In this document: positions 1,451 to 51,714 of the stretch, one piece after another
Position numbering within the stretch: the stretch's first letter is position 1
Layout: every line of letters begins with the position of its first letter
From: a bacterium
GTDB taxonomy: Bacteria; JACRDZ01; JAQUKH01
Direction of reading: 5' to 3'
Length of the DNA: 55,922 nt
Assembly (NCBI GenBank): GCA_028719205.1
Contig: JAQUKH010000015.1
Location: 1 to 55,922, forward strand
The notes under the pieces: generated by a model
The model's input: the letters and a program-made list of their open reading frames with translations, nothing else
Database searches by the model: none
Told to the model about the DNA's origin: nothing
Translations under genes and position numbers: made by a program

Positions 1451-2803
1451 ATGACTGATAAGTTAGTTGAAGCGTTAGAGCAGTTAGGCAGGGAAAGAGG
1501 TTTGGATCGCGAGGTTCTGATAAATACCTTGCATGTAGCTTTTTTATCCGCCGCGAAAAAGACTTTTGGATATATCATTAAAGCCAGCAGCCTTGAGATC
1601 AAAGAGGATGCGGACGGCCATATTAGTGTCAATTGGATAAAAAAAGTCGTTGATGATCCTAAAGAATTTTTTGAGATAGACCTGAAAACCGCCAAAAAGA
1701 TAGATCCGGAAGTAAAATTAGGTGATGAAGTTAAGGTCGCGTTATCTCCCGCGGATTTTACAAGGACCGCGGCCCAGACGACAAAGCAGATAGTTATCCA
1801 GAGGATCAAAGAGGCGGAGAGAGATAATATTTATAAGGAGATCAAGAAAAAAGAAGGCGATATCATTACCGGGAATGTTGAGAAAATAGAACGGAATTAT
1901 ATTAATATATTGTTAGGAAAAGTAGAGGGTGTTTTATCTTATAGAGAACAGGTAAAGAATGAAAAATATATGGTGGGTGACAGAATAAAGGTGTATGTGG
2001 TTGAGGTTGTTAAATCGAGTAAAGGCCTTCAGGTAAAACTCTCGCGGTCTCATCCCGGATTAGTAAGAAGGCTTTTTGAGCTGGAGGTTCCCGAGATCGG
2101 GGAAAAGACCGTAGAAATAAAAAATATAGTTCGTGAACCCGGAGAGAGGACAAAAATAGCGGTTTATACTAAAAACGCGAATATTGATCCGGTTGGGGCA
2201 TGTGTAGGTATGAAAGGGAGCCGGATACAAGCTATTACGAAGGAATTAAGAAATGAAAAATTGGATATTATACAATGGTCGGAAAATGATACCGAGTTTA
2301 TTATCCATGCTTTAAGCCCCGCGAAAATAACCAGAGTGATACTGGACAGGGAGACTAAACGGGCCTTAGTCATAGTTCCGAATGACCAGTTATCGCTTGC
2401 TATCGGCAAAAAGGGACAGAATGCGAGGCTCAGCGCGAGGTTGACTAATTGGAGAATTGATGTAAAAAATGAAGATGAATTTAAAGAGGTTCAGCGCCAG
2501 ACTTTGAGCAAGATATTTAAAGATAACCCGGATACGCAGGAAGATGTGTCATTATCTTCACTCGAGGGTATAGGCGAAAAAACCATTCACAGGCTCGAGG
2601 CGGCCGGAATGCACAACCTTTCAGATATTAAAAAGGCCGGAATAGAGCAACTTGAGACTATTGAGGGAATCGGAAAAAAGACTGCGGAAAAACTTTTACA
2701 TATGGCTGAAGAAAATACAGGTACTGAAAAGCAGGAGCCTGAGGCGGAAAAAGAGGCGGATGATAAAAAGGATGACAATTCCGGGGCAGAATTTAATAAA
2801 TAG
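1451..2803 (+). CDS. nusA: Transcription termination/antitermination factor NusA
   Basis: Binds RNA polymerase and controls pausing, termination and antitermination. The order is an N-terminal polymerase-binding domain, an S1 domain at about residues 130-200 (GNVEKIERNYINILLG), two KH domains (GACVGMKGSRIQAI and LAIGKKGQNARLSARL) and a C-terminal helix-hairpin-helix region (LEGIGEKTIHRLEAAG, then IEGIGKKTAEKL) with an acidic tail. The start at ATG 1451 is chosen because GGGAGA sits just upstream. An upstream TTG at 1418 lies inside a palindrome and lacks a ribosome site. The protein has 450 residues. It overlaps nothing and is followed 16 bases later by infB. Confidence 0.96.
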   Translation: MTDKLVEALEQLGRERGLDREVLINTLHVAFLSAAKKTFGYIIKASSLEIKEDADGHISVNWIKKVVDDPKEFFEIDLKTAKKIDPEVKLGDEVKVALSPADFTRTAAQTTKQIVIQRIKEAERDNIYKEIKKKEGDIITGNVEKIERNYINILLGKVEGVLSYREQVKNEKYMVGDRIKVYVVEVVKSSKGLQVKLSRSHPGLVRRLFELEVPEIGEKTVEIKNIVREPGERTKIAVYTKNANIDPVGACVGMKGSRIQAITKELRNEKLDIIQWSENDTEFIIHALSPAKITRVILDRETKRALVIVPNDQLSLAIGKKGQNARLSARLTNWRIDVKNEDEFKEVQRQTLSKIFKDNPDTQEDVSLSSLEGIGEKTIHRLEAAGMHNLSDIKKAGIEQLETIEGIGKKTAEKLLHMAEENTGTEKQEPEAEKEADDKKDDNSGAEFNK

Positions 2804-2819
2804 AAAAAAGGCAGGTATA

Positions 2820-4919
2820 ATGAGGGTTCACGAGTTAGCTAAAAAAATAAATGTTCCAAGCAAAAAACTTATTGACGGGCTTAGGCAGTTAGGTGTTGAC
2901 ATTAAGAGCCATATGAGTGTTCTATCTGAGGACACGATCCAGATGGTTCTTACTGCTATGAATGATGAGAAAAAGAAAATCAGTGAGCCCGTTAAAGCGA
3001 AACCGGTTAAGGAAACAAAAATTTCTCCTGTTACTAAAGCTATTCCCAAAGTCTCAAAAAAAGAACCTCTGAAAAAAACGGAAACTGAAGAGCAGATAAC
3101 CGAAGACATATCTGAAAAAAAAGAAATTCTGAAAGAAACAGCGAAAAAAGAAGAAATAAAAGAGAAAAAGAATGTCTTAAAAATCAGCGGGGATTATATT
3201 ATTGTAAGTGAATTAGCGAATAAATTAAATAAAGAACCTTCCGAGGTTATTAAAAAATTAATTGATTTTGGCGTCATGGCAGCTATTAACCAGCGGATAG
3301 ATATGGATACCGCGGGAACAATTGCCGCTGAATATGGATTTGAAATAGAATCAGCACCTCTTTTTGGAGAGGAAATTATTGTAAAAGAAGAAAAAGAAGA
3401 TCCCGCTAAATTAAAACACAGGGCTCCTATCGTGACAATTATGGGGCATGTTGATCACGGTAAAACAAAACTTCTTGACGCTATCAGAAAAACCAATGTT
3501 GTCGATCAGGAATCAGGCGGTATTACACAGCATATCGGGGCATATCATGTAAAATCAGATAAAGGAACTATAGTTTTTCTTGATACACCGGGCCATGAGG
3601 CATTTACCGCGATGCGCGCGAGGGGAGCAAAGGTTACTGATATTGTTATTTTAGTTGTCGCCGCGGATGATGGAGTAATGCCTCAGACAAAAGAGGCTAT
3701 TGACCACGCTAAAGCGGCTAATGTGCCGATAATCGTGGCTATCAATAAAATAGATAAAAAAGAAGCTAATCCGATGCGGGTAAAACAACAGCTTAGTGAT
3801 TACGGATTAAGCCCTGAGGATTGGGGCGGAAAAACAATTTTTGTGGAAGTTTCAGCCTTGATGAAAAAAGGTATTTCAGAACTGTTGGATATGATCCTTC
3901 TTCAGGCAGAGATGCTGGAATTAAAAGCTAATCCGGATCGCCCTGCTAAAGGGACCATAATTGAGGCTTCAATGGATAAAAAACGCGGTGTTATTGCCAC
4001 AGTTCTTATCCAGCAGGGAACGCTTCATGTAGGTGATCCGTTCATCAGCGGGCATTGTTTTGGAAAAGTGAAGGCAATGGTTGATGATTGGGGAAAAAGA
4101 TTGAAAGAAGCGGGCCCGTCAACGCCTGTTCAAATAATGGGAATTTCAGAATTGCCTCAGGCCGGAGACCTGTTCTATGTCGTGAATGATGAAAAAACGG
4201 CCCGTCAGATAGGTATAAAACGCAGAGAGATGGATCGTGAAAGAGGCCTTGGGGAAAAAGGGCATATTAAACTGGGTGAGGTATTCAGCAAGATCCAGCA
4301 GGGTGATATGAAGGGCCTTAATATTGTAATTAAGGCGGACGTGCAAGGTTCGATCGAGGCTTTGCAGGGGTCATTAGAACAACTCTCTACTCCAAAGGTT
4401 AAGCTCAATGTTATCCATAGCGGAGTGGGAGCAATTACTGAAAGCGATGTTTTGCTGGCGTCCGCGTCAAACGCGATCATTATAGGATTTACTGTCCGTC
4501 CCGAACCGAAAGTTAATGATCTTGCGGTAAGAGAAGGTATTGATATAAGGCTGTATAGGATCATATATGATATTATTGACGATGTCCGCAAGGCAATGGT
4601 AGGATTATTAGACCCGAAATTTAAAGAAGTAGTTTCCGGCAGGGCTGAGATCAGAGAAGTATTTCGTATTCCAAAGGGGAACATAGCGGGGGTATATATA
4701 ACTGACGGTAAAGTTACAAGGTCCTCTTTTGTCAGATTGCTTAGAGATAATGTTGTTGTGTTTGAAGGTACGATTTCATCTCTTAAAAGATTTAAGGAAG
4801 ACGCGAAAGAAGTGTCTGCCGGATATGAATGCGGGCTGGGCCTTGAAAATTATAATGATATTAAACAAGGCGATATTCTTGAGTTCTATGTTAAAGAAAC
4901 AGTAGCGCAGGAATTGTAA
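2820..4919 (+). CDS. infB: Translation initiation factor IF-2
   Basis: GTPase that brings initiator tRNA to the 30S subunit. The start at ATG 2820 has AGGCAGG upstream and begins with the IF2N motif [19 protein letters not shown] second IF2N-like helix bundle follows a lysine-rich linker ([19 protein letters not shown]). The G domain starts near residue 200 with GHVDHGKT, then DTPGHEAF and NKID. Domains II to IV follow, ending near [12 protein letters not shown]. At 699 residues it is a short IF-2 with a reduced N-terminal region. An open frame runs upstream to 2652 but overlaps nusA and is rejected as an extension. Confidence 0.97.
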
Positions 4920-6256: not shown

Positions 6257-7149
6257 TGGATGGTATTCTAAATATTAATAAGCCCGCGGGAATGACATCT
6301 CATGATGTTGTTGATTATATTAGAAGAATTACTAATATAGAAAAGGTTGGGCATACGGGTACGTTAGATCCTGACGCGACCGGAGTTTTACCGGTATGTA
6401 TCGGGCGGGCTACAAAGATCGTTCAGTTCCTGATAAATGAGAATAAGTCTTACAGAGTAACTTTATTACTCGGTGTTTCTACAAGTACTCAGGATATTTC
6501 AGGGAACGTTGTAAAAGAAGTTAAAAATTTTAATATTACTCAGAAAGATATCGAAGATATATTAATTTCTTTTACAGGGGATATCGAACAGATTCCGCCT
6601 ATGGTTTCGGCTTTGCGTATAAATGGGAAAAGGTTATATAAGTTAGCCCGCCAAGGCAAAGAGGTGGAAAGAGAAGCCAGAAAGATTACTATTTACAAAA
6701 TAGGCCTTTTGGAAGTAAAATTACCTTATGTAAGCCTCGAGATCGATTGTTCAAAAGGAACTTATGTAAGAACTCTATGTTCTGATATCGGAGACCGGCT
6801 TGGAATGGGTGCTTGTCTTTATGATCTTGTCAGAACAAGATCGGGGAGATTTGATCTTAATAACGCGGTTGGATTAAAAGATATAAAAGATATAGAAACT
6901 TTAAAAAATAATTTAAAGCAAATGAATGAGGTGCTTGATCATTTGCCGATGATCAGGGCATTGTCAGGCGGAATAAAATTGCTCAGGCTTGGAAAGCCTC
7001 TGACGGAAAATAATATTTCCTTTTTTCCCGGTATATCAGGTACTCAGAATTTATATCGTTTATATCAGGATAAAAGTCCGGAGCTTTTGGGTATAGTTGA
7101 AAAAGTTTCTAAGGAGGGTAAAATTTTTAAGATCGTAAAATGGTTATAA
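6256..7149 (+). CDS. truB: tRNA pseudouridine(55) synthase TruB
   Basis: Makes the T-loop pseudouridine at tRNA position 55. The N-terminus reads MDGILNINKPAGMTSHDVV and carries the catalytic aspartate in HTGTLDPDATGVLP at about residues 33-46. The segment YVRTLCSDIG marks the second core motif. The start is GTG at 6256, overlapping the nrnA TAG. The C-terminal part is divergent and lacks a clear PUA signature. The protein has 297 residues. Its place between rbfA/nrnA and rpsO is the common bacterial arrangement. Confidence 0.95.
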   Translation: MDGILNINKPAGMTSHDVVDYIRRITNIEKVGHTGTLDPDATGVLPVCIGRATKIVQFLINENKSYRVTLLLGVSTSTQDISGNVVKEVKNFNITQKDIEDILISFTGDIEQIPPMVSALRINGKRLYKLARQGKEVEREARKITIYKIGLLEVKLPYVSLEIDCSKGTYVRTLCSDIGDRLGMGACLYDLVRTRSGRFDLNNAVGLKDIKDIETLKNNLKQMNEVLDHLPMIRALSGGIKLLRLGKPLTENNISFFPGISGTQNLYRLYQDKSPELLGIVEKVSKEGKIFKIVKWL

Positions 7150-7191
7150 TTAAAAATTGGGGTTTAATTTTCAGGAAAGGAAGGAGTTTTT

Positions 7192-7461
7192 ATGTCATTA
7201 ACTAAAGAAGTAAAAAAAGAAGTCGTTGAAAAATTTAAAAAACATGATAAAGATACTGGATCTGTGGAGGTTCAAATTGCTTTGTTGACCCAGAGGGTAA
7301 ATGAGTTGACAGAGCATTTTAAAGCTCACATCAAAGACCATCATTCAAGGCGGGGGCTTTTAAAAATAGTCGGCCAGAGGAGAAGGCTGTTAAATTATCT
7401 GCAGCAGAAAGATCAGGCCAAGTATCAGGAGATCATTAATAAATTAAATATTAGAAAATAA
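7192..7461 (+). CDS. rpsO: 30S ribosomal protein S15
   Basis: Binds 16S rRNA early in 30S assembly. The 89-residue protein matches the standard S15 length and pattern, with [20 protein letters not shown] and the rRNA-binding [25 protein letters not shown] lies five bases before the ATG. The 42-base gap from truB could host an S15 autoregulatory site, as in other bacteria, but no recognisable structure was seen. pnp follows, the usual rpsO-pnp pair. Confidence 0.97.
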
Positions 7462-7504
7462 AAATAGCAATAAGTAGTTAGTGTCGAATAGAAAAGGAAA
7501 AAAT

Positions 7505-9613
7505 ATGAAAAAAATGGAATTGGAATTAGGCGGTAAAAAGTTGATCATTGAGGTAGGGCATCTGGCCAAACAGGCCAATGGCGCGGCGTTAGTCAGATAT
7601 GGAGATACTGTTCTTTTAACTACAGTGGTAATGGCAAAGGAACCAAAAAAGGATATAGATTTTTTCCCTTTATCAGTTGAATACAAGGAAAGGACTTATG
7701 CCGCGGGTAAGATACCCGGAGGTTTTTTTAAACGGGAAGGCCGGCCGACGACAAAAGAAATACTTACATGCCGCCTGGTTGACAGGCCGCTCCGTCCGCT
7801 TTTCCCGAAAGGTTTTAAACATGATGTGCAGATCGTTCCTATGGTGCTTTCCGTGGACGGGGTCAATCCGCCGGATATATTATCTATTATTGGCGCGTCA
7901 GCCGCTCTTACTTTTTCAGATATACCTTTTTATGGGCCGGTCGGCGCTGTAAGAGTTGGAAGGGTTAATGACCAGTTTATTTTAAATCCGGGTTATGAAG
8001 ATATGGCAAAAAGCAGTTTAAATATTGTTATTGCCGGTAAAAAAGATGCTGTTTTGATGATAGAAGCTGAAGCAAATGAGGTTGCGGAAGAGGTTATTAT
8101 TGACGCGATAAATTTCGCCAAACCTTTTATTACGAATATTATAAAGTTCCAGGAAGAATTTGCCAGAGAAGTCGGCAAGGCTAAGAGAGAAGTGATAATT
8201 TCCTCAATATCTGAAGATATAAAAACTAAGGTTGATAACTTTGCGCGGGAAAAAATGAAGAAGGCTCTTGATACTTCAGATAAAAATCTTATGAAGGAGA
8301 ATTTATCAAATCTTGAAAAAGAGGCGATGGAGCATTTTAAATCCGGTTTTAGCGAAGATGAAAAAGGTGAATTGATAATAAATAATATTCTTGAGGAAAT
8401 GGAGAAGGGAATAGTCAGGAATAAGATCTTAAATGAATCAAAAAGGACGGATGGACGTTCTTTAACAGATATCCGCCAGATAACCTGCGAGGTAGGAGTA
8501 TTGCCGAGGACTCATGGTTCAGGCCTTTTTACACGCGGACAAACACAGAGTTTATCCGTCGTTACGCTTGGAACAACGCAGGATGAACAAAGAATGGATG
8601 ATCTTGAAGGTGAATCTACCGAATCTTTTATGCTGCATTATAATTTTCCTCCTTTCAGTGTGGGTGAAGTCGGAAGATTCTCGGGGCCCGGAAGAAGGGA
8701 GATCGGCCATGGCGCGCTGGCTCAAAAAGCTCTTAAGTCTATTTTGCCTACGTCAGATAAATTTCCTTATACGATCAGGCTCGTGTCGGAAATTTTGGAA
8801 TCAAACGGTTCATCATCCATGGCTACGGTATGCGCCGGGACATTGAGCCTTATGGACGCGGGTGTTCCTATAAAATCTCCTGTTGCGGGTATAGCGATGG
8901 GATTAATCAAAGAAGGCAATAAAGTAGCGATACTTTCTGATATTCTCGGACAGGAAGACCATCTGGGCGATATGGATTTTAAAGTCGCGGGAACCAGAAA
9001 CGGCATAACAGCCTTACAGATGGATATAAAAATAGACGGGCTTGATGAAAGTATTATGAAGACCGCGCTGAGCCAGGCAAAAGCAGGAAGATTATTCATA
9101 CTTGGAAAAATGGAAGAGGTAATTTCAAAACCAAGAGCTGATATATCGAATTACGCGCCGAGAATAATAATAATCCAGATCGATCAGGCGAAGATCAAAG
9201 ATGTTATCGGGCCCGGAGGGAAGATCATCAGGGGAATTATTGAGCAGACGGGAGTAGAGATAGATATCAAGGATAGCGGACAGGTTTATATATCATCTGT
9301 GAGCGTGGAATCAGCGAAGATGGCGCAGGATATGGTGGAATATCTTACCCGTGATGTGAATATCGGTGAAATATATACCGGAAAAGTTACCCGGGTAGTT
9401 AATTTCGGAGCCTTTGTCGAGATCCTTCCCGGAAAAGAAGGATTGGTCCATGTTTCCCAGTTGGCGGACCATCATGTTAAAAATGTTGAAGATATTGTGA
9501 AAGAAGGCGATGAGATTTTAGTTAAGGTAATAGAGATTGACAATCAGGGAAGAATTAATTTAAGCAGAAAAGCCGCTCTCACACCCGAAAAATTAAGGGA
9601 TGAAAAAAAGTAG
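7505..9613 (+). CDS. pnp: Polyribonucleotide nucleotidyltransferase (PNPase)
   Basis: Phosphorolytic 3'-5' exoribonuclease of the RNA degradosome. The ATG at 7505 (AAGGAA upstream) is preferred over a GTG at 7481 that would add eight residues. Order: first RNase PH domain, helical domain, second RNase PH domain (from about residue 305, with TRGQTQSLSVVTLGT), a KH domain (GPGGKIIRGIIEQTG) and a C-terminal S1 domain (YTGKVTRVVNFGAFVEI). The length of 702 residues is normal. The last 14 bases overlap the next gene. Confidence 0.97.
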   Translation: MKKMELELGGKKLIIEVGHLAKQANGAALVRYGDTVLLTTVVMAKEPKKDIDFFPLSVEYKERTYAAGKIPGGFFKREGRPTTKEILTCRLVDRPLRPLFPKGFKHDVQIVPMVLSVDGVNPPDILSIIGASAALTFSDIPFYGPVGAVRVGRVNDQFILNPGYEDMAKSSLNIVIAGKKDAVLMIEAEANEVAEEVIIDAINFAKPFITNIIKFQEEFAREVGKAKREVIISSISEDIKTKVDNFAREKMKKALDTSDKNLMKENLSNLEKEAMEHFKSGFSEDEKGELIINNILEEMEKGIVRNKILNESKRTDGRSLTDIRQITCEVGVLPRTHGSGLFTRGQTQSLSVVTLGTTQDEQRMDDLEGESTESFMLHYNFPPFSVGEVGRFSGPGRREIGHGALAQKALKSILPTSDKFPYTIRLVSEILESNGSSSMATVCAGTLSLMDAGVPIKSPVAGIAMGLIKEGNKVAILSDILGQEDHLGDMDFKVAGTRNGITALQMDIKIDGLDESIMKTALSQAKAGRLFILGKMEEVISKPRADISNYAPRIIIIQIDQAKIKDVIGPGGKIIRGIIEQTGVEIDIKDSGQVYISSVSVESAKMAQDMVEYLTRDVNIGEIYTGKVTRVVNFGAFVEILPGKEGLVHVSQLADHHVKNVEDIVKEGDEILVKVIEIDNQGRINLSRKAALTPEKLRDEKK

Positions 9614-10868
9614 TTTTTATTCCCACGAGACTTTAAAGAACGGGCTTAAGGTAGTTATGGAAAAAATACCTTATGTCCGTTCTGTTTCTTTAGGCCTGTG
9701 GGTTGAGGCCGGGTCCCGTGATGAAAATAAAAATGAAAGCGGTTTTTCACATTTTATAGAACATCTCCTTTTTAAAGGAACAAAGAAGCGGGATGCGCGC
9801 TCTATCTCTTCTGAATTAGAAAGTGTCGGCGGACGGCTGGATGCCTTTACCGGCAGGGAATATACCTGCCTTTCCGCCAGGGTTCTCGATACCCACCTTG
9901 ATCTCGCGCTTGAGCTCATCTCGGATCTTTATCACAATTCAACTTTTCCAAGAGACGAACTGGAACGTGAACGGCAGGTGGTTCTCGAAGAGATCAAAAT
10001 GTCGGAGGATATCCCCGAGGATTTTATTTTTGATATTTTCAATGAGTCCATTTATCCGGACAACAGTTTAGGCAGGCCGATCCTTGGCTACCGGGATATT
10101 ATCCTGAAATTGTCACGCGATAAAATTTTTGATTTTTATAAAAAATATTACGATCCCTCTAAAACTATTTTAGCGCTCTGCGGAAATTTCTCAGAGAAGC
10201 CTTTTATTGAGAAAACAAAAAAATATTTTAAAAGTCCCGGAAGTAAAATAAGTTTTCCGGCGAAAATTACTCCCGAATATCACCAGGGAATAAAAGTCCA
10301 TACAAAAAAGTTAAATCAGGTCCATATCTGCCTTGGAGCCGAAGGATTAGAGTTCGATCATAAAGACAGGTCGGTAATACAGGTTTTGAACGTGATGCTC
10401 GGAGGAAGCATGAGTTCCCGCCTTTTCCAGGAGATCCGTGAGAAGAGGGGCCTAGCGTATTCAATATATTCCTGCCAGAGTTCGCATAAGGACAGCGGCG
10501 CGATAATGATCTACGCGGGCACTGCTAAAGACAAGGCTAATGAGGTGGTCGCTCTGATACTAAAAGAATTGAATAGCGTTAAAAGAGGAAAGATAACTCA
10601 GGCTGAAATGAATCTTTCAAAAGAACAGTTAAAAGGCAACATCGTTCTTGGCGCTGAAAGCACTGAAAACAGGATGATGAGGCTTGCCACTTGTGAATTT
10701 TATATGCGTAAATATATTTCCCTCGAAGAATCAATAGCCGAGATCGATAAGGTTAAAAAAGACGACGTGATAAGGTTAGCCGCCCAAATTTTCAATCCCT
10801 CAAAATTAAATCTTACCTGCCTGGGCCCGGTCAGTAAAAAAGAAATTTCATTCAATAATTTTAAATAA
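9600..10868 (+). CDS. M16-family zinc peptidase (processing-protease-like, YmxG type)
   Basis: Probably a cytoplasmic zinc-dependent oligopeptide-degrading or processing peptidase. The inverted zinc motif HxxEH is at residues 51-55 (HFIEH), and the downstream glutamate lies in the RERQVVLEEIKMSED region. The C-terminal half has the EIREKRGLAYSI arm typical of the second M16 domain. At 422 residues it is a single-chain two-domain member. It overlaps pnp by 14 bases, an arrangement also seen in Bacillus-type genomes. It ends exactly where the attC-like site begins. Confidence 0.93.
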   Translation: MKKSSFYSHETLKNGLKVVMEKIPYVRSVSLGLWVEAGSRDENKNESGFSHFIEHLLFKGTKKRDARSISSELESVGGRLDAFTGREYTCLSARVLDTHLDLALELISDLYHNSTFPRDELERERQVVLEEIKMSEDIPEDFIFDIFNESIYPDNSLGRPILGYRDIILKLSRDKIFDFYKKYYDPSKTILALCGNFSEKPFIEKTKKYFKSPGSKISFPAKITPEYHQGIKVHTKKLNQVHICLGAEGLEFDHKDRSVIQVLNVMLGGSMSSRLFQEIREKRGLAYSIYSCQSSHKDSGAIMIYAGTAKDKANEVVALILKELNSVKRGKITQAEMNLSKEQLKGNIVLGAESTENRMMRLATCEFYMRKYISLEESIAEIDKVKKDDVIRLAAQIFNPSKLNLTCLGPVSKKEISFNNFK

Positions 10869-10929
10869 ATAACGCTGAAAACTCAGGCGCTCCGATTTAT
10901 CGGAGTCGCCTGAAGTGCTGTTGTTAAAA
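10867..10929 (-). repeat. attC-like recombination site 1
   Basis: Read on the minus strand it begins TTTTAACAA and ends GCGTTATTT, with AAC/GTT ends that pair as attC R boxes do. An unpaired stretch follows, then a long imperfect stem: 10883-10895 against 10900-10913 with one bulged base at 10906 and a TTTA tip. This matches the R''-spacer-L''-variable tip-L'-R' layout of integron cassettes. It lies 3' of the minus-strand gene at 10992-11573. It could also be a plain bidirectional terminator between convergent genes, since it sits next to the peptidase stop. Confidence 0.55.
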
Positions 10930-10991
10930 TTTTAATTTATGTTAATCTTTTATATTTTTGTAAATTTTCTTAAATTTTTATATTTCTGTTT

Positions 10992-11573
10992 TTATTTAAA
11001 TATTTCTTCTGTTTTTAAAATATTTTTTAGCCAGGAAGTTAAATCTTTTGCGCTATCCGATAAATTAAAATAAGACCAATCTCCTTCCACGCAGAGTTCA
11101 ACCACTTTATATTTGTTTATTTTTGGATCAAATAAGTAAGCGATATAATCAGTGCCTCCCTGATCAGCACCCATTCCAACCCTTTCAGAATAATTTCCTT
11201 TGCTTGCTGATTCAATAAGTTTTGATTTTTCATTTAGGATTTTAATGTCAATTACTTTTATGAGCTTTTTCAAATGACTATATTTTTCTGATAATTCTTC
11301 TTCAGTATAAAATTTGTTTTCATTAAAATCAAATTTCTTATCATTTTTACTATATTGGTAACTATAAATACTTCCTTCATTATCAATATAGAAGCCATAG
11401 TGATTATATCCCCAAGCAAAATTTATATGCTCTAATTCAAAAAGAAACTTTTGTTTTAAATCATTTGATTCAATTGCACTTACAGAATTATCCCAAGGCA
11501 TGTTACAGCCAAAGCCAAAAATAATAATTACTAATAAGATTAAACAACTAAAATATTTTGTAATATATTTCAT
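10992..11573 (-). CDS. Hypothetical secreted lipoprotein-like protein
   Basis: Not recognised. The 193-residue protein has a short basic start, a hydrophobic segment at about residues 8-20 and a cysteine at residue 23 (IFGFGCNMPW). This suggests a lipoprotein signal, though the lipobox is imperfect. The mature part has no clear domain; it is rich in Lys, Asn and Tyr and carries GMGADQGGTDYIAYLFDP. AAAGGA precedes the start. It forms the second unit of the putative cassette array, with an attC-like site on each side. Base use is AT-rich, which suggests transfer. Confidence 0.75.
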   Translation of the reverse strand: MKYITKYFSCLILLVIIIFGFGCNMPWDNSVSAIESNDLKQKFLFELEHINFAWGYNHYGFYIDNEGSIYSYQYSKNDKKFDFNENKFYTEEELSEKYSHLKKLIKVIDIKILNEKSKLIESASKGNYSERVGMGADQGGTDYIAYLFDPKINKYKVVELCVEGDWSYFNLSDSAKDLTSWLKNILKTEEIFK

Positions 11574-11596
11574 TATTATCCTTTATTATTTTTTAC

Positions 11597-11679
11597 TTTT
11601 AACGGAAAAGCTCACCGGTTTTGAACAGACGGCATCTTTTTGCCGGCTGTTCAAAATCCGGTGTAGCACCTTGTTAAAA
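11597..11679 (-). repeat. attC-like recombination site 2
   Basis: On the minus strand the ends are TTTTAAC and GTTAAAA, a perfect R''/R' pair. AAGGT and CTTTTCC form an unpaired central spacer. The L-box stem is GCT-CACCGG with a bulged base, continuing into CACCGG (11613-11618) with CCGGTG (11658-11663) and TTTTGAACAG (11619-11628) with CTGTTCAAAA (11647-11656). Extrahelical single bases (for example 11657) break the stem, a hallmark of attC. It lies between the two AT-rich genes, on the 3' side of the one at 11765-13726. Confidence 0.7.
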
Positions 11680-11764
11680 GCTTTTATTTTATATACTTTT
11701 AGGAACACCCCTCAAGACTTTTAAGTTCCTGTACATTTTCTGAACCTTTTTTTAATTTATATTT

Positions 11765-13726
11765 TTATTCCCCTTTAGCTATTAATTCTTGCAATCTTTT
11801 TGGAGTAGGGATTCTATAAAGTGATTTTTCACCAGTTATTGTACTTGACTTGCAAAAATATAACCATTTTTCGTCTGATGAAAGTTTAGGATCATTAAAA
11901 TTAAATTCTTCGCTTTCCCAAATAACTTTTTGAGATGATAAGCTATATAAACTAATTTTACATTTATTCCCAGATCCTATAAATATTATATACTTACCAT
12001 TATTACTCCAAACAGGATTTCTATTATTATTTATAATGTTTAACAATTCTGTCTTAATAATTTCATAATCAGGTGAAAAATATGTTAAAGTGTATTCGAA
12101 TATATGTTGCTCAGTTGTTTTGCTATTTATACAGATTAAATTATTAGGCGACCAAATACTCTCATTATATGAAAACATTCCATTAAATTCATCACTCTTA
12201 TTTTTATTATAATTATATATAAAACGCTTTGCCTTTCTTTCAACTTTTTGCTTTGTAGGTTTAGTTGAATATATTTCAGGATCAGGAACCGAATATGCAA
12301 AAGAGTTATTACGGGGTAGCCATTTGTAAGCATAAGAATTTTTTTCTTTAATATCTTTTAACTCGTGTGTTTTAGTATTATATATGCCAATATAATAAAA
12401 ATAGGTTTTGGAATCTTCAGATCCTTTATAATAATATTTTTCTTCTGCTTCCTTACTTCTTTGAAAAACTAATAATTCTCCATTTGGTGACCAAAAAGTA
12501 CTATAATCAAAACTATTTGTTAAGTTATTTACTAGTTTTTTTTCTTCACCTTCGATTTCTTTTAGCCATAATTCATCATTTCTTATTCTATTATTTTCTA
12601 AATAAACAATTTTTTTATAAGCAACCATTTTCCCATCAGGACTTGATATTGGATAAATTCCTTCTGCCAATCTTTTAATACCGCTCCCATTCATTTCGCT
12701 TGTCCATATATAGTTACTTTTTTGTTCTACTTCTCCATATATCTCTAATATTTTATTTTCAGCTGCATCTTTCTCAAAAAGTATTTTTCCATGCGGAATT
12801 AATTTAAAACTTTTTACATCTGATAAAACTAATTCCCAATCATTTTCGAGACTTTCTAACTTCCTCACTTCTTCATCACTTAAAAGTTCAAAAGAAGCTT
12901 TTTTAATTTGATTATTATAATGTTTTATTTTTTTAATTGTTTCCATTTTTATTATCTTACCGCTTTCCGGATCAAACCAACTTTTCCCTTTCAGTGATAT
13001 TTGAGCCCAAATCTCATTTTTATTACTCGCACTTCTTATGATTCCTGACTCTTTATCATTTGATCCATCTCTCGCCTCACCAATTTTTGTTTCAATTATT
13101 ATACATTTTTTACCTTTAACTATTTCTTCGCCTAAAATTTCATAGTGAGCCGTTACACCATTGTACATATTAACATCCTTAGACCATTTATTTCCTAGTG
13201 GTATTTTTTGCTCAAATTGAGGCTGTGTTATAAAGAAAAAATGGAAATCTGGATGTAAATTCCCTATTATAGCCCCATTTTTTTTTATTATATATGATTT
13301 ATCGTTTGGGCCCGATAATAGTTCACCCGTGAATGACAAAATTGCACCATAAGGACCCTCATGACTTCTTTTTGGCTCTTGCCATATATTATTTCCCATG
13401 CTCCAACCACTTTCATTTTCTTTGTACTCTTTAACTTTAAAAATCTGGATTCCTTCAGTGCTTTCTGAAAATTTAAATAGCGATGGAAAAATTCTTCCAA
13501 ACCTTAGCAAATAAAATAAGCCGTTATATAAACGATATAAATAATATGGCTTATAATCTGCCTTCAAGGTTTTTTTATAATATAAATTTTCGCCTTCTTT
13601 ATATTTATATTCCAATACATTATCTGTTTTTATTGAAACTGATTTAGCCTGATTAGCCAAAATATTTGTGCTAAATAAAAATATTAATATAACTATTTTT
13701 AAAAATATGTTTGTGTATATTTTCAT
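11765..13726 (-). CDS. Secreted TolB/WD40-like beta-propeller protein
   Basis: Function unknown. The 653-residue protein begins with a signal peptide (IFLKIVILIFLFSTNILA, residues 7-24). The N-terminal half, to about residue 330, has no recognised family. The C-terminal half carries repeated PD40/TolB-like blades with the pattern [W/S]SP[N/D]G: SSPDGKMVAYKK, WSPNGELLVFQRS, WSPNNLICINS, WSNNGKYIIFIGSG and SSDEKWLYFCKS. It is probably a periplasmic or outer-surface propeller. It is very AT-rich, has its own consensus promoter and is followed by attC-like site 2, so it resembles an unusually long gene cassette. Confidence 0.8.
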   Translation of the reverse strand: MKIYTNIFLKIVILIFLFSTNILANQAKSVSIKTDNVLEYKYKEGENLYYKKTLKADYKPYYLYRLYNGLFYLLRFGRIFPSLFKFSESTEGIQIFKVKEYKENESGWSMGNNIWQEPKRSHEGPYGAILSFTGELLSGPNDKSYIIKKNGAIIGNLHPDFHFFFITQPQFEQKIPLGNKWSKDVNMYNGVTAHYEILGEEIVKGKKCIIIETKIGEARDGSNDKESGIIRSASNKNEIWAQISLKGKSWFDPESGKIIKMETIKKIKHYNNQIKKASFELLSDEEVRKLESLENDWELVLSDVKSFKLIPHGKILFEKDAAENKILEIYGEVEQKSNYIWTSEMNGSGIKRLAEGIYPISSPDGKMVAYKKIVYLENNRIRNDELWLKEIEGEEKKLVNNLTNSFDYSTFWSPNGELLVFQRSKEAEEKYYYKGSEDSKTYFYYIGIYNTKTHELKDIKEKNSYAYKWLPRNNSFAYSVPDPEIYSTKPTKQKVERKAKRFIYNYNKNKSDEFNGMFSYNESIWSPNNLICINSKTTEQHIFEYTLTYFSPDYEIIKTELLNIINNNRNPVWSNNGKYIIFIGSGNKCKISLYSLSSQKVIWESEEFNFNDPKLSSDEKWLYFCKSSTITGEKSLYRIPTPKRLQELIAKGE

Positions 13727-13760
13727 TTTTTATTATTTTAACAATTTAATAGACGCAATA

Positions 13761-13811
13761 CCTGTTAATCGTTATTTTTGTTAATATTTAACAAATTTTA
13801 ATTTTAACAGG
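13761..13811. promoter_or_regulatory. Inverted repeat in the leader of the propeller gene
   Basis: CCTGTTAA (13761-13768) and TTAACAGG (13804-13811) are exact complements with 35 bases between them. They sit at or just after the predicted transcription start of the minus-strand gene ending at 13726. The arms could form a leader hairpin or an operator. A degenerate recombination site cannot be excluded. Confidence 0.4.
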
Positions 13812-13815
13812 CTAT

Positions 13816-13844
13816 ACTATAACAATCAGGGTTTCTCTTGTCAA
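13816..13844 (-). promoter_or_regulatory. Consensus promoter for the propeller gene
   Basis: On the minus strand, TTGACA (13839-13844) is followed after exactly 17 bases by TATAGT (13816-13821). Transcription would start near 13808 and give a leader of about 80 bases before the ATG at 13726. Confidence 0.6.
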
Positions 13845-13921
13845 TAAATAAAGATATGTGGTTATTTATATATTGGGTGTTTTTCGTGATTACTTTGTAA
13901 TAGCAGGAAATACGCATTGCG

Positions 13922-14002
13922 TATAAACTTGAGTTAAACGAAAGATTTTGACCAAAGGTCAAGTTCTTTCGCTTTTACTCATTGTTATCCTCGTAGGGGA
14001 TA
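13922..14002 (+). repeat. Dispersed hairpin repeat, copy A
   Basis: A 19-base left arm (13922-13940, TATAAACTTGAGTTAAACG) and a 33-base right arm (13970-14002) flank a hairpin tip (CGAAAGA pairing with TCTTTCG, and TTGACC with GGTCAA). The same two arms recur inverted at 29962-30035 with a completely different tip. It lies downstream of the fumarase-like gene and may act as its terminator. Confidence 0.7.
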
Positions 14003-14021
14003 TTAATGGATTTTTGTCTGA

Positions 14022-14525
14022 TCACACAATCCCAACATACGCAGGGAAATCTTTGACTGTGATCTTTCGTATTGCCTCGGGGCCGAGTTCTGGGTAGGCG
14101 ACCAGTTCGTTTTTTGTGATAAATTGGCGGAGGTAGGCGCCGGCGCCGCCGTAGGTTACAAAATATACGGCTTTGTGTTTTTTTATGGCGTTCGTTACTT
14201 CTTTTGACCTTGTTCCTTTTCCAATTGTTCCTTTTAGCCCGTGTTCCAATAGAATCTCTGTAAATGGATCCATTCTTTTGCTTGTAGTAGGGCCCGCGGA
14301 ACCGATAATCTCTCCTTTTCTCGCGGGAGTCGGCCCGCAATAATAGATGATCTGGCCTTCAAGCGGGAAAGGCAATTTTTTGCCTTTTTTGATCAGTTCA
14401 ATCAACTTTTTATGCGCCTGGTCGCGGGCGATGTAAAACGTTCCGGTTATTTCAACTTTATCACCGGGATTTAGGTTTTTAATTACTTTTTCATTTATAG
14501 GAGTAGTAATTTTACTGGTATCCAT
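14022..14525 (-). CDS. Class I fumarase / tartrate dehydratase beta-subunit-like protein
   Basis: Belongs to the family of the small beta subunit of two-subunit class I fumarases, which completes the active site of an Fe-S alpha subunit. Typical motifs are GDKVEITGTFYIARDQAHK, YYCGPTPA followed by GSAGPTTSKRMDPF, GKGTRS and YFVTYGGAGAYL. The start is set at ATG 14525 (167 residues). An open frame extends to 14594 but its sequence is unlike the family. A promoter ends six bases before this ATG, so the mRNA may be leaderless. No alpha subunit is present nearby, so it must have a partner elsewhere or a different role. Codon context looks native. Confidence 0.88.
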   Translation of the reverse strand: MDTSKITTPINEKVIKNLNPGDKVEITGTFYIARDQAHKKLIELIKKGKKLPFPLEGQIIYYCGPTPARKGEIIGSAGPTTSKRMDPFTEILLEHGLKGTIGKGTRSKEVTNAIKKHKAVYFVTYGGAGAYLRQFITKNELVAYPELGPEAIRKITVKDFPAYVGIV

Positions 14526-14531
14526 GGTAAA

Positions 14532-14560
14532 ATTATAACACAAATTTAAAAAGGAGTTAA
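14532..14560 (-). promoter_or_regulatory. Promoter of the fumarase-like gene (possible leaderless start)
   Basis: On the minus strand, TTAACT (14555-14560) and TATAAT (14532-14537) are 17 bases apart. Only six bases separate the -10 box from the ATG at 14525, so transcription would begin at or next to the start codon. No Shine-Dalgarno sequence is present. Confidence 0.5.
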
Positions 14561-14561
14561 T

Positions 14562-14807
14562 ATTAAAGATATTGTTAATACAACCATAAAACACGCGAAA
14601 AGAATAGTAATGGTAGTTATTGGATTTACTGTATTACTTATCGGAATTGCAATGATAGTTTTGCCCGGGCCGGCGATACTGGTAATACCCCTGGGGCTCG
14701 CGATCCTGGCGGGAGAATTTTTATGGGCAAAAAAACTTCTGGATAGGGTCAAATCGGGAGTTCAGGATGCTAAGGATTATGTTAATTCAAATTTTAAAAA
14801 GAAATAG
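14562..14807 (+). CDS. Small PGPGW-family transmembrane protein
   Basis: Short inner-membrane protein of the putative PGPGW transmembrane family; function unknown. The core FTVLLIGIAMIVLPGPAILVIPLGLAILAGEFLWAKKLLD shows two hydrophobic segments around the PGP motif, followed by a basic amphipathic tail. The first ATG is 14610 and has no ribosome site. In-frame codons upstream encode a family-like stretch ending KHAKRIVMVV, and AAGGAG sits five bases before an ATT at 14562. A non-canonical AUU start, giving about 81 residues, therefore looks more likely than the 65-residue version. The gene is divergent from the fumarase-like gene. Confidence 0.7.
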   Translation: MKDIVNTTIKHAKRIVMVVIGFTVLLIGIAMIVLPGPAILVIPLGLAILAGEFLWAKKLLDRVKSGVQDAKDYVNSNFKKK

Positions 14808-41626: not shown

Positions 41627-42046
41627 ATGAAGAAAATGTTTAAGAATGAAAAGGGTTTTACGTTAATTGAACTTATGATCGTTATAGCAATTTTAGGTAT
41701 TTTAGCAGCAGTGGCAATCCCTAATTTCTTAAATGCGAGAGGTAAGGCTCAGGATGCGGCAGCTCTTTCCACGCTTGAAGCGGTAAAAACAGCGATGGAA
41801 ATGTACGCGGCTGATAACGGAGTATATCCTACGCTTACTGGTGGAGCTAATACCGGTCATGACTTATCTATTGCTTTAGGCGCAGATTTTCCAACAAATA
41901 TTAAGATGGATACTACAGTAGCCGGTGCGTTGAATGACGTTGTAAGTGCTACTGGCACATACACACTATGGGCAATAGGCAGGGACGCTGATCATTATTT
42001 TAGCTTGACAAATGCTGGTGTAAAGACAGGCCCAACTACGCATTAA
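41627..42046 (+). CDS. pilA: Major type IV pilin (PilA-like)
   Basis: Structural subunit of the pilus. The short basic leader ends at G10, and the mature protein starts FTLIELMIVIAILGILAAVA with glutamate at mature position 5, the hallmark of prepilin peptidase substrates. The rest is a small globular domain of about 100 residues with no cysteines. Total length is 139 residues. It has its own promoter and is followed by a strong terminator, so it is expressed as a single unit between pilC and pilD. Confidence 0.95.
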   Translation: MKKMFKNEKGFTLIELMIVIAILGILAAVAIPNFLNARGKAQDAAALSTLEAVKTAMEMYAADNGVYPTLTGGANTGHDLSIALGADFPTNIKMDTTVAGALNDVVSATGTYTLWAIGRDADHYFSLTNAGVKTGPTTH

Positions 42047-49828: not shown

Positions 49829-51714
49829 GACGGGTCATTTACATCCTGTTTACTATTCTTTTTTTTCTTTCAGTATTCTTAAGCTCCGGCGCGGGAATTG
49901 TTTCTATTAAATCCCTTGAAATATTGACCTTTTCACTGTTGTGTGTTTTCATATACCGTTCATTTCATCAGAAAAAAGTTGTATTAAAAAGAACAAATTT
50001 TGACCTGAGTATAGCCTTCCTCTTTATTTTTTCAACATTAAATTATTTATTGAATTTTAATTCGTTTTTCGCGCGCGAGGAATGGATCAAGATAATCAGC
50101 CTGATAATCCTTTATTATCTTCTGGTAAATTTTATTGAAAGTGATAAAGAAGCGGAAAGATTTATTAATATTTTTCTTTTATTTGCCTTTGTTGAATCAA
50201 TATTCGCGCTTGGTAAAAAATTTTATTTTGGGGAGGCCCGGCTGGCCGGAACCCTGGCAAGTCCGAATTTTCTTATGGGTTTTCTTCTGCCTTTATGTGT
50301 ATTTATTCCTGATAAAATAGTAGCCGGTATAAAAGATAAAAAAAATATTAAAATATTCTATTATTTGGTTTTATCAGTTTTAGTTTTTATTTCATTGATA
50401 TATTCACGATCACGCGCGGGATTATTATTGCTTTCATTGATCATCTTATTCCTGGTTTATGAGAAATTCAATTTTACAAAATGGTTTTTTGCGATTCTCA
50501 GCGTTTTTGTCCTGGCGATATTCTTAACTCCAAATATGAAAAGATTTCTGGATTTTGGGAACCAGGATATTCTTTCATATTACCGGTTATCCATATGGAA
50601 AAGCAGTATCCGGATGATAAGTGATAATTTCTGGACAGGCGTTGGGCTTGGTAATTTTAAAAACAGCTATCTTGCCTTTCGCCTGCCTATTAAGGGAGCA
50701 ATCAGCCAATACGGGAGATTCGCGCAATTCGCGCATAATGAATTCCTGGAATTAGGCGCGGAAATAGGTTTTGCCGGTATTATTATCGGCCTCATATTTC
50801 TGGCTAAATATATTCTTTCCGTGAAAGAAAAAAAGAATAGTAAATTAGTTATAAATATTTACATTGCAGGCGGTTTAATTTTATTCCAAAGTATTTTTGA
50901 CTATAATTTTCATCATCCGGGAATTGCTATTTTATTTGTTTTCTTATTGGCATCACAGGAGAGTTTAACCTGTAAAGAAGAGAAAATAATTAATTTACCA
51001 AGTTCTTATTTATCCTATTTAACGCTTATACCGGTTGCGATGTTTATGTTTTTTACTTATTTTCCCGTTTTTGCGTTTTATGAGACAAAACTGGGATTTA
51101 ATGATCTGCAAAAAAATGATGTTAAATCGGCCGCGGGGCATTTTGAAAGGGCTATCAAGTGGGCTCCTGATATTGCTCCAATTAATTCTTATTTAGCGGA
51201 AACAATACTTCTGGATAAAAATGGCAGATCAAAAGAAGAAAGAATAGTAACAACCGAAAGATTTTATCAGCAGGCTATATATTATGAACATGATAATTCA
51301 GAATTTTATTTTAAATTAGCATCTTTTTATTATTATAATTATCCTAAGGATATGAATTTTTATTTAGCCGTCGCGACAATACAAAAAAGTTTTATTTATG
51401 ATCCTTATAACGCTTTTTATCCTTATTATCTTGCGCAATTCTATCTTTCCAGATTAAAATATAGTGAAGCGGAAAGATATTTCCTGAAAAGTATAGAACT
51501 TGAACCGAATCTTTTAAGGTCAAGGATCTATTTGGATTTCATTTACGGTAAGGAAAAAGAATATGAGAAGTCTAAGAAAAATTTAGTTGAAATAGTCAGA
51601 ATTGAAAAATTGAAAAATATGGCAATTACTGATTTTGAAATAAAATTAGTCAGCTGGCCGGAAGAAGACGCGGAATTTCTAGAAAAAGTTAAACAGGAAG
51701 AGGTTAAAAAATGA
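49825..51714 (+). CDS. O-antigen ligase-like membrane protein with TPR tail
   Basis: Probably a Wzy_C-family ligase or polymerase that moves glycan onto lipid or protein. It has about 11 hydrophobic segments in the first 425 residues and the large periplasmic loop with RLSIWKSSIRMISDNFWTGV and FAQFAHNEFLELGAEIGFAG, which match the Wzy_C motif. TPR-like repeats fill the C-terminal 200 residues (YYLAQFYLSRLKYSEAERYF). Length is 629 residues. The start is GTG at 49825, overlapping the aroC stop. Because it lies in a pilus cluster, a pilin oligosaccharyltransferase role is possible but unproven. Confidence 0.85.
   Translation: MRRVIYILFTILFFLSVFLSSGAGIVSIKSLEILTFSLLCVFIYRSFHQKKVVLKRTNFDLSIAFLFIFSTLNYLLNFNSFFAREEWIKIISLIILYYLLVNFIESDKEAERFINIFLLFAFVESIFALGKKFYFGEARLAGTLASPNFLMGFLLPLCVFIPDKIVAGIKDKKNIKIFYYLVLSVLVFISLIYSRSRAGLLLLSLIILFLVYEKFNFTKWFFAILSVFVLAIFLTPNMKRFLDFGNQDILSYYRLSIWKSSIRMISDNFWTGVGLGNFKNSYLAFRLPIKGAISQYGRFAQFAHNEFLELGAEIGFAGIIIGLIFLAKYILSVKEKKNSKLVINIYIAGGLILFQSIFDYNFHHPGIAILFVFLLASQESLTCKEEKIINLPSSYLSYLTLIPVAMFMFFTYFPVFAFYETKLGFNDLQKNDVKSAAGHFERAIKWAPDIAPINSYLAETILLDKNGRSKEERIVTTERFYQQAIYYEHDNSEFYFKLASFYYYNYPKDMNFYLAVATIQKSFIYDPYNAFYPYYLAQFYLSRLKYSEAERYFLKSIELEPNLLRSRIYLDFIYGKEKEYEKSKKNLVEIVRIEKLKNMAITDFEIKLVSWPEEDAEFLEKVKQEEVKK

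Follow-up and report, generated by a model that had tools for sequence, protein, structure and literature searches.

The attC sites of integrons carry two boxes, R'' and R' (YYYAAC ... GTTRRR), with a G|TT cut point, and fold into an imperfect hairpin in which the spacers are unpaired, some bases are extrahelical and the tip is variable. A mobile gene cassette is one that an integron integrase excises or inserts. In a complete integron, the integrase gene (intI) is adjacent to the attI site and the cassette array, with attI at the array start. A cluster of attC sites lacking an integron integrase (CALIN, in IntegronFinder terminology) has two or more attC sites no further than 4 kb apart, with no intI nearby. 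CALINs are common and often regarded as degraded integrons (PMC9024848), and an integrase acting in trans can mobilize CALIN cassettes (PMC9668308). Cassettes are likewise known to insert at nonclassical attG sites (work cited in PMC12901181). The phylum of the bacterium considered here is not among the integron-bearing phyla listed in a review (PMC8618304), and a full-text literature search for Candidatus Desantisbacteria together with integron found no paper; neither absence is proof of novelty.

We analyzed a locus within a 55.9-kb stretch of DNA, which we refer to in its entirety as the window. The host assembly (G000) is a draft of 68 contigs, and the array reading given below rests on sequence, with no recombination observed. 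A preliminary description had assigned the DNA to an uncultured lineage, consistent with a draft genome from a tiny phylum in which another member, G003, corresponds to a deposited Candidatus Desantisbacteria genome (identical IntI). The locus comprises two cassettes in head-to-tail arrangement, flanked by the genes for an M16 peptidase and a fumarase subunit (Table 1).

Table 1. Features of the cassette locus, in window coordinates
Feature	Position	Strand	Basis or remarks
M16 peptidase, host flank	9600..10868	plus	conserved in same-genus genome G001
attC site A	10863..10933 (core TAAC...GTTA 10870-10926)	minus	held-out model R1 and fold z
Cassette 2, 730 bp between two G|TT junctions	10873..11602	minus	junction sequences; 26% G+C
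Cassette 2 gene, 193 aa, lipoprotein-like	10992..11573	minus	lipobox-like LVIIIFGFGC (by eye)
attC site B	11593..11683 (core TAAC...GTTA 11600-11676)	minus	held-out model R1 and fold z
Cassette 1, 2,139 bp between two G|TT junctions	11603..13741	minus	junction sequences; 28% G+C
Cassette 1 gene, 653 aa	11765..13726	minus	hydrophobic N-terminus, PD40/TolB-like propeller repeats
attI/Pc-like platform	13742..13932	minus	block common to C35 and C21 attI regions, promoter, docking point TATTAAATTG|TTA
Sigma-70-like promoter TTGACA-17-TATAGT	13816..13844	minus	11/12 consensus bases, TG before -10
Terminator-like hairpin	13929..13981	unassigned	between fumarase gene and platform; fold z -5.8
Fumarase C-terminal (beta) subunit, host flank	14022..14594	minus	conserved in G001

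The preliminary description had reported hairpins at 10867-10929 and 11597-11679 reading TAACAA and GTTA on the minus strand, with unpaired spacers and single bulged bases, each lying 3' of a minus-strand gene. All of these elements are present (sites A and B). Both sites carry R boxes with G|TT and an imperfect hairpin with spacers, extrahelical bases and a variable tip; read 5' to 3' on the minus strand, they run through an R'' box, an unpaired spacer, a stem, the tip, a second spacer and an R' box, and each stem has two single bulged bases on the same arm, six pairs apart. The boxes read TTTTAAC...GTTAAAA in site B and TTTTAAC...GTTA in site A, with host DNA beyond; the outer R' bases of site A are unpaired with R'', as is expected if host DNA begins after the last G|TT cut. 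Each hairpin directly follows a minus-strand ORF in the orientation typical of cassettes: site B follows the 653-aa ORF and forms the 3' end of cassette 1, and site A follows the 193-aa ORF and forms the 3' end of cassette 2, making it the last site of the array. When folded as single-stranded DNA, sites A and B had z-scores of -5.5 and -7.6, respectively, and neither was equaled in any of 200 shuffles.

We then scored the sites with an attC covariance model (R1) trained on eight other sites from the host genome, with A, B and a near-twin of B withheld. Across the window, R1 returned two matches only at E <= 10, namely site A (55.3 bits, E 1.8e-12) and site B (29.8 bits, E 2.6e-5); Rfam at gathering thresholds reported only one tRNA in the same 55.9 kb. 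The whole genome has 23 attC matches at E <= 1, mostly in tandem arrays with intervening genes, and in Omnitrophota and deltaproteobacteria R1 also matches sites next to IntI genes. In an alignment of 30 attC sites from the host and related genomes, 89.6% of cells were paired and pairing was lost when partners were slid; pairing was kept in 102 double-change cells, compared with 35.5 in shuffles, a count that leans toward the attC model because the alignment had been fitted to it.

The twin of site B (91% identical; contig C43 of the host genome, 13387-13479) belongs to a cassette carrying a different gene, and the two copies cease to resemble each other soon beyond the site. Beyond the last attC of C43 lies a gene for an rsgA-like GTPase. 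The two hairpins could in principle be ordinary intrinsic terminators placed after two AT-rich orphan genes, given that both are GC-rich stems in AT-rich surroundings and that site A lies between convergent genes. We consider this extremely improbable, since a held-out model with R boxes and bulges scores both hairpins and matches nothing else in the window, and since a near-identical copy of B stands beside different genes; on the held-out model and the C43 twin we rejected intrinsic terminators as the identity of A and B. The earlier suggestion of attC sites and cassettes thus holds up on the held-out E-values, the fold z-scores, the R-box anatomy and the genome-wide matches. The sites are almost certainly real attC sites, and the genes real integron cassettes.

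A comparison with the same-genus genome G001 agrees with this. The flanking genes share 85% protein identity with their G001 counterparts, and DNA similarity ends at 10852 and resumes at 14017. The G001 genome has neither cassette protein, and no attC was found at the corresponding flanks. In place of the cassettes, G001 has REP-transposase-like DNA and other genes; both flanking genes are near contig ends, so the empty site is inferred rather than read through. On whether an integron integrase moved the cassettes, their absence from G001 and the C43 twin of site B bear indirectly. The preliminary description had named as refuting its reading an attC score for neither hairpin together with relatives that keep both genes in order; the outcome was the opposite on both counts. 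Elsewhere in the window, a 71-bp segment (41759-41829) is 83% identical to a segment of G001 (contig C80; L081 2929-2999).

Cassette boundaries fall at G|TT junctions at 13742/13741, 11603/11602 and 10873/10872, and the G+C content of the cassettes is 26%-28% versus 41% in the flanking genes. Cassette 1, at 2.1 kb, is long beside its 0.7-kb neighbor. Its 653-aa product matches PD40 (E 1.3e-10) and, weakly, the TolB propeller, and the hydrophobic N-terminus resembles a signal peptide by eye, giving the protein a secreted look; it had no relative among 336 genomes and no match in phages. The 193-aa product of cassette 2 had no NCBIfam match, only sub-threshold Pfam matches, and no match in viral contigs. 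It has one distant relative among the 336 genomes (31% identity, genome G121), which we did not count as a cassette gene because the attC model found no match around it. When the cassette proteins of the genome were compared with 80 IntI neighborhoods, two small proteins of the C30 array had matches and the window proteins had none; no other integron was seen to contain either of the window cassette genes. Most likely, both cargo proteins are exported and accessory, and the platform promoter drives their transcription.

This promoter had been attributed to the propeller cassette itself. We found the TTGACA-17-TATAGT motif on the chromosomal side of junction 13742/13741, upstream of the point of recombination, so that the idea of a cassette with its own promoter is not supported. 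The motif reads into the cassettes (13844-13816); it is a consensus match only, and looser scan criteria expect 3.2 chance sites in the AT-rich region. For the terminator-like hairpin between the fumarase gene and the platform, the scan gave two terminator-like calls, versus 0.2 expected.

We compared the upstream segment with an attI/promoter model (R3) built from five sequences (C35, C21 and three G001 loci), with the window left out. R3 had a single match in the window, at 13746-13932 on the minus strand (E 0.0015), whose 13.4 bits are about equal to the AT-rich composition correction of 13.8 bits, marking it as weak and composition-biased. With a two-sequence attI model (R2), the platform was not separable from an AT-rich background match at 50985-51107, which scored slightly better; the background match was gone with R3. 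The platform spacing is off from that of C35 by tens of bases. A weak and biased match of this kind favors a scenario in which IntI put the cassettes into an ordinary chromosomal attG-type site, the upstream promoter being host DNA, and cassette insertion at attG sites has been described (Loot et al. 2024, cited in PMC12901181). We nevertheless find this unlikely. The sole R3 match in 55.9 kb stops just four bases short of the junction; the junction ranks third of 8,227 GTT positions in similarity to the C35 attI (tied with two others), behind only the C35 and C21 attI themselves; and the score of the upstream block is reached in just 1.2%-1.5% of AT-rich random segments. These similarities suggest that the upstream segment probably derives from an attI platform.

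The window contains no intI. Contig C35 does encode a full-length integron integrase, the only integrase in the genome to exceed the TIGR02249 cut-off of 265 bits (it scores 419 bits when the genome is scanned and 428 bits as a protein). In a collection of genome contigs, a single-protein IntI query had no match, and an alignment query succeeded. The array had been described as integrase-less, which is correct for the window locus and incorrect for the genome as a whole, where IntI sits on C35 with its own array. The window cassettes are consequently not stranded from a recombinase. On C35, intI is divergent from the cassette array; there, a promoter-like stretch is followed by a GTT docking point and then by the first cassette.

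Several features of the other arrays were recorded alongside. The C35 locus (L022, 1-8248) has intI at 6908-8248, a divergent array with at least six attC sites and an IS110-type transposase gene (2408-3424) that splits one attC. A second attI/promoter module without intI is located on C21 (L044/L214, 2131-2298) beside an inositol-monophosphatase-like gene, and is followed by several cassettes reaching the contig end. Two different attC sites (L022 412-479; L044 245-312) have the same insertion sequence starting exactly at their R' ends, as if it were targeting attC, and several cassettes in L021 and L020 carry toxin-antitoxin-like pairs. In the host genome, intI adjoins priA on C35 and another array part ends beside gmk on C30, an arrangement suggesting that C35 and C30 are probably the two ends of a single array interrupted by insertion sequences.

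The gmk-priA locus of G001 has no intI and no array, both of which are present in the host genome; it keeps an attI/promoter remnant and a 66-aa gene. A further attI/promoter module in G001, without a GTT core (contig C108; L194, about 1460-1660), stands directly before a gene for a 312-aa secreted-looking protein and may be a reused promoter. The G001 gmk-priA remnant offers a precedent for a variant of the array reading, in which the window locus would be what is left of a complete integron after loss of its local intI, inert and with nothing moving now; the common view of CALINs as degraded integrons (PMC9024848) points the same way. We hold this only as a tentative possibility, as the 280 bp from the junction to the fumarase gene contain no evident intI remnant, the attC sites look intact and an IntI is available in trans.

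Overall, we favor as likely the reading of the locus as a small integron array with a nonlocal integrase gene, composed of an attI-like platform and two cassettes. The diverged attI/Pc-like segment upstream would supply the promoter and the G|TT docking point. An integron integrase, be it one formerly encoded at the locus or the IntI of C35 working in trans, would have recombined folded single-stranded attC sites at the G|TT of the docking site, thereby inserting the cassettes, and the platform promoter would transcribe the secreted propeller and then the lipoprotein behind it. It is plausible, if doubtful on present evidence, that one integrase serves several scattered attI/Pc platforms without intI, on C21 and beside the fumarase gene in the window, in addition to its own on C35. 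If so, cassettes would be taken up and expressed at several places on the chromosome and not in one queue, and, should integrase-less platforms work in trans, cassette capture would not be confined to one array start per genome.

A GC-rich cassette-like element is repeated in the C30 and C21 arrays (L021, about 14400-14560; L044, about 350-2130). Copies 81%-91% identical to it occur at several places in a Syntrophaceae integron locus (L100) and at two in another deltaproteobacterial locus (L098); a search for it in plasmids gave no match. Its presence in these loci indicates that the system has sites in common with the integrons of another phylum. Such a common array part suggests that cassettes, or their sites, cross phylum borders.

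How does the window locus compare with the described systems? Like a CALIN, it has two attC sites 0.7 kb apart, no nearby intI (the only integrase above the TIGR02249 cut-off being on another contig) and the gene-then-attC order and orientation; unlike a CALIN, it appears to keep an attI/Pc-like segment upstream, in a genome with a full-length IntI elsewhere. With intI on C35, it lacks the adjacent integrase gene of a complete integron. It resembles the sedentary chromosomal integron of the same genome, the C35 array, in its attC family, G|TT junctions, orphan and lipoprotein-like cargo and platform promoter, and differs from it in having no intI and just two cassettes. As in attG-mediated insertion (Loot et al. 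2024, as cited in PMC12901181), the cassettes are chromosomal and away from intI, but the target here is closer to the attI of its own genome than almost any other GTT sampled. The locus carries real integron cassettes and is a gene-capture system of a known kind (CALIN), new in this host; a small uncultured phylum outside the reviewed list (PMC8618304) is thereby seen to have an integron system that looks intact, with cassettes for secreted-looking proteins.
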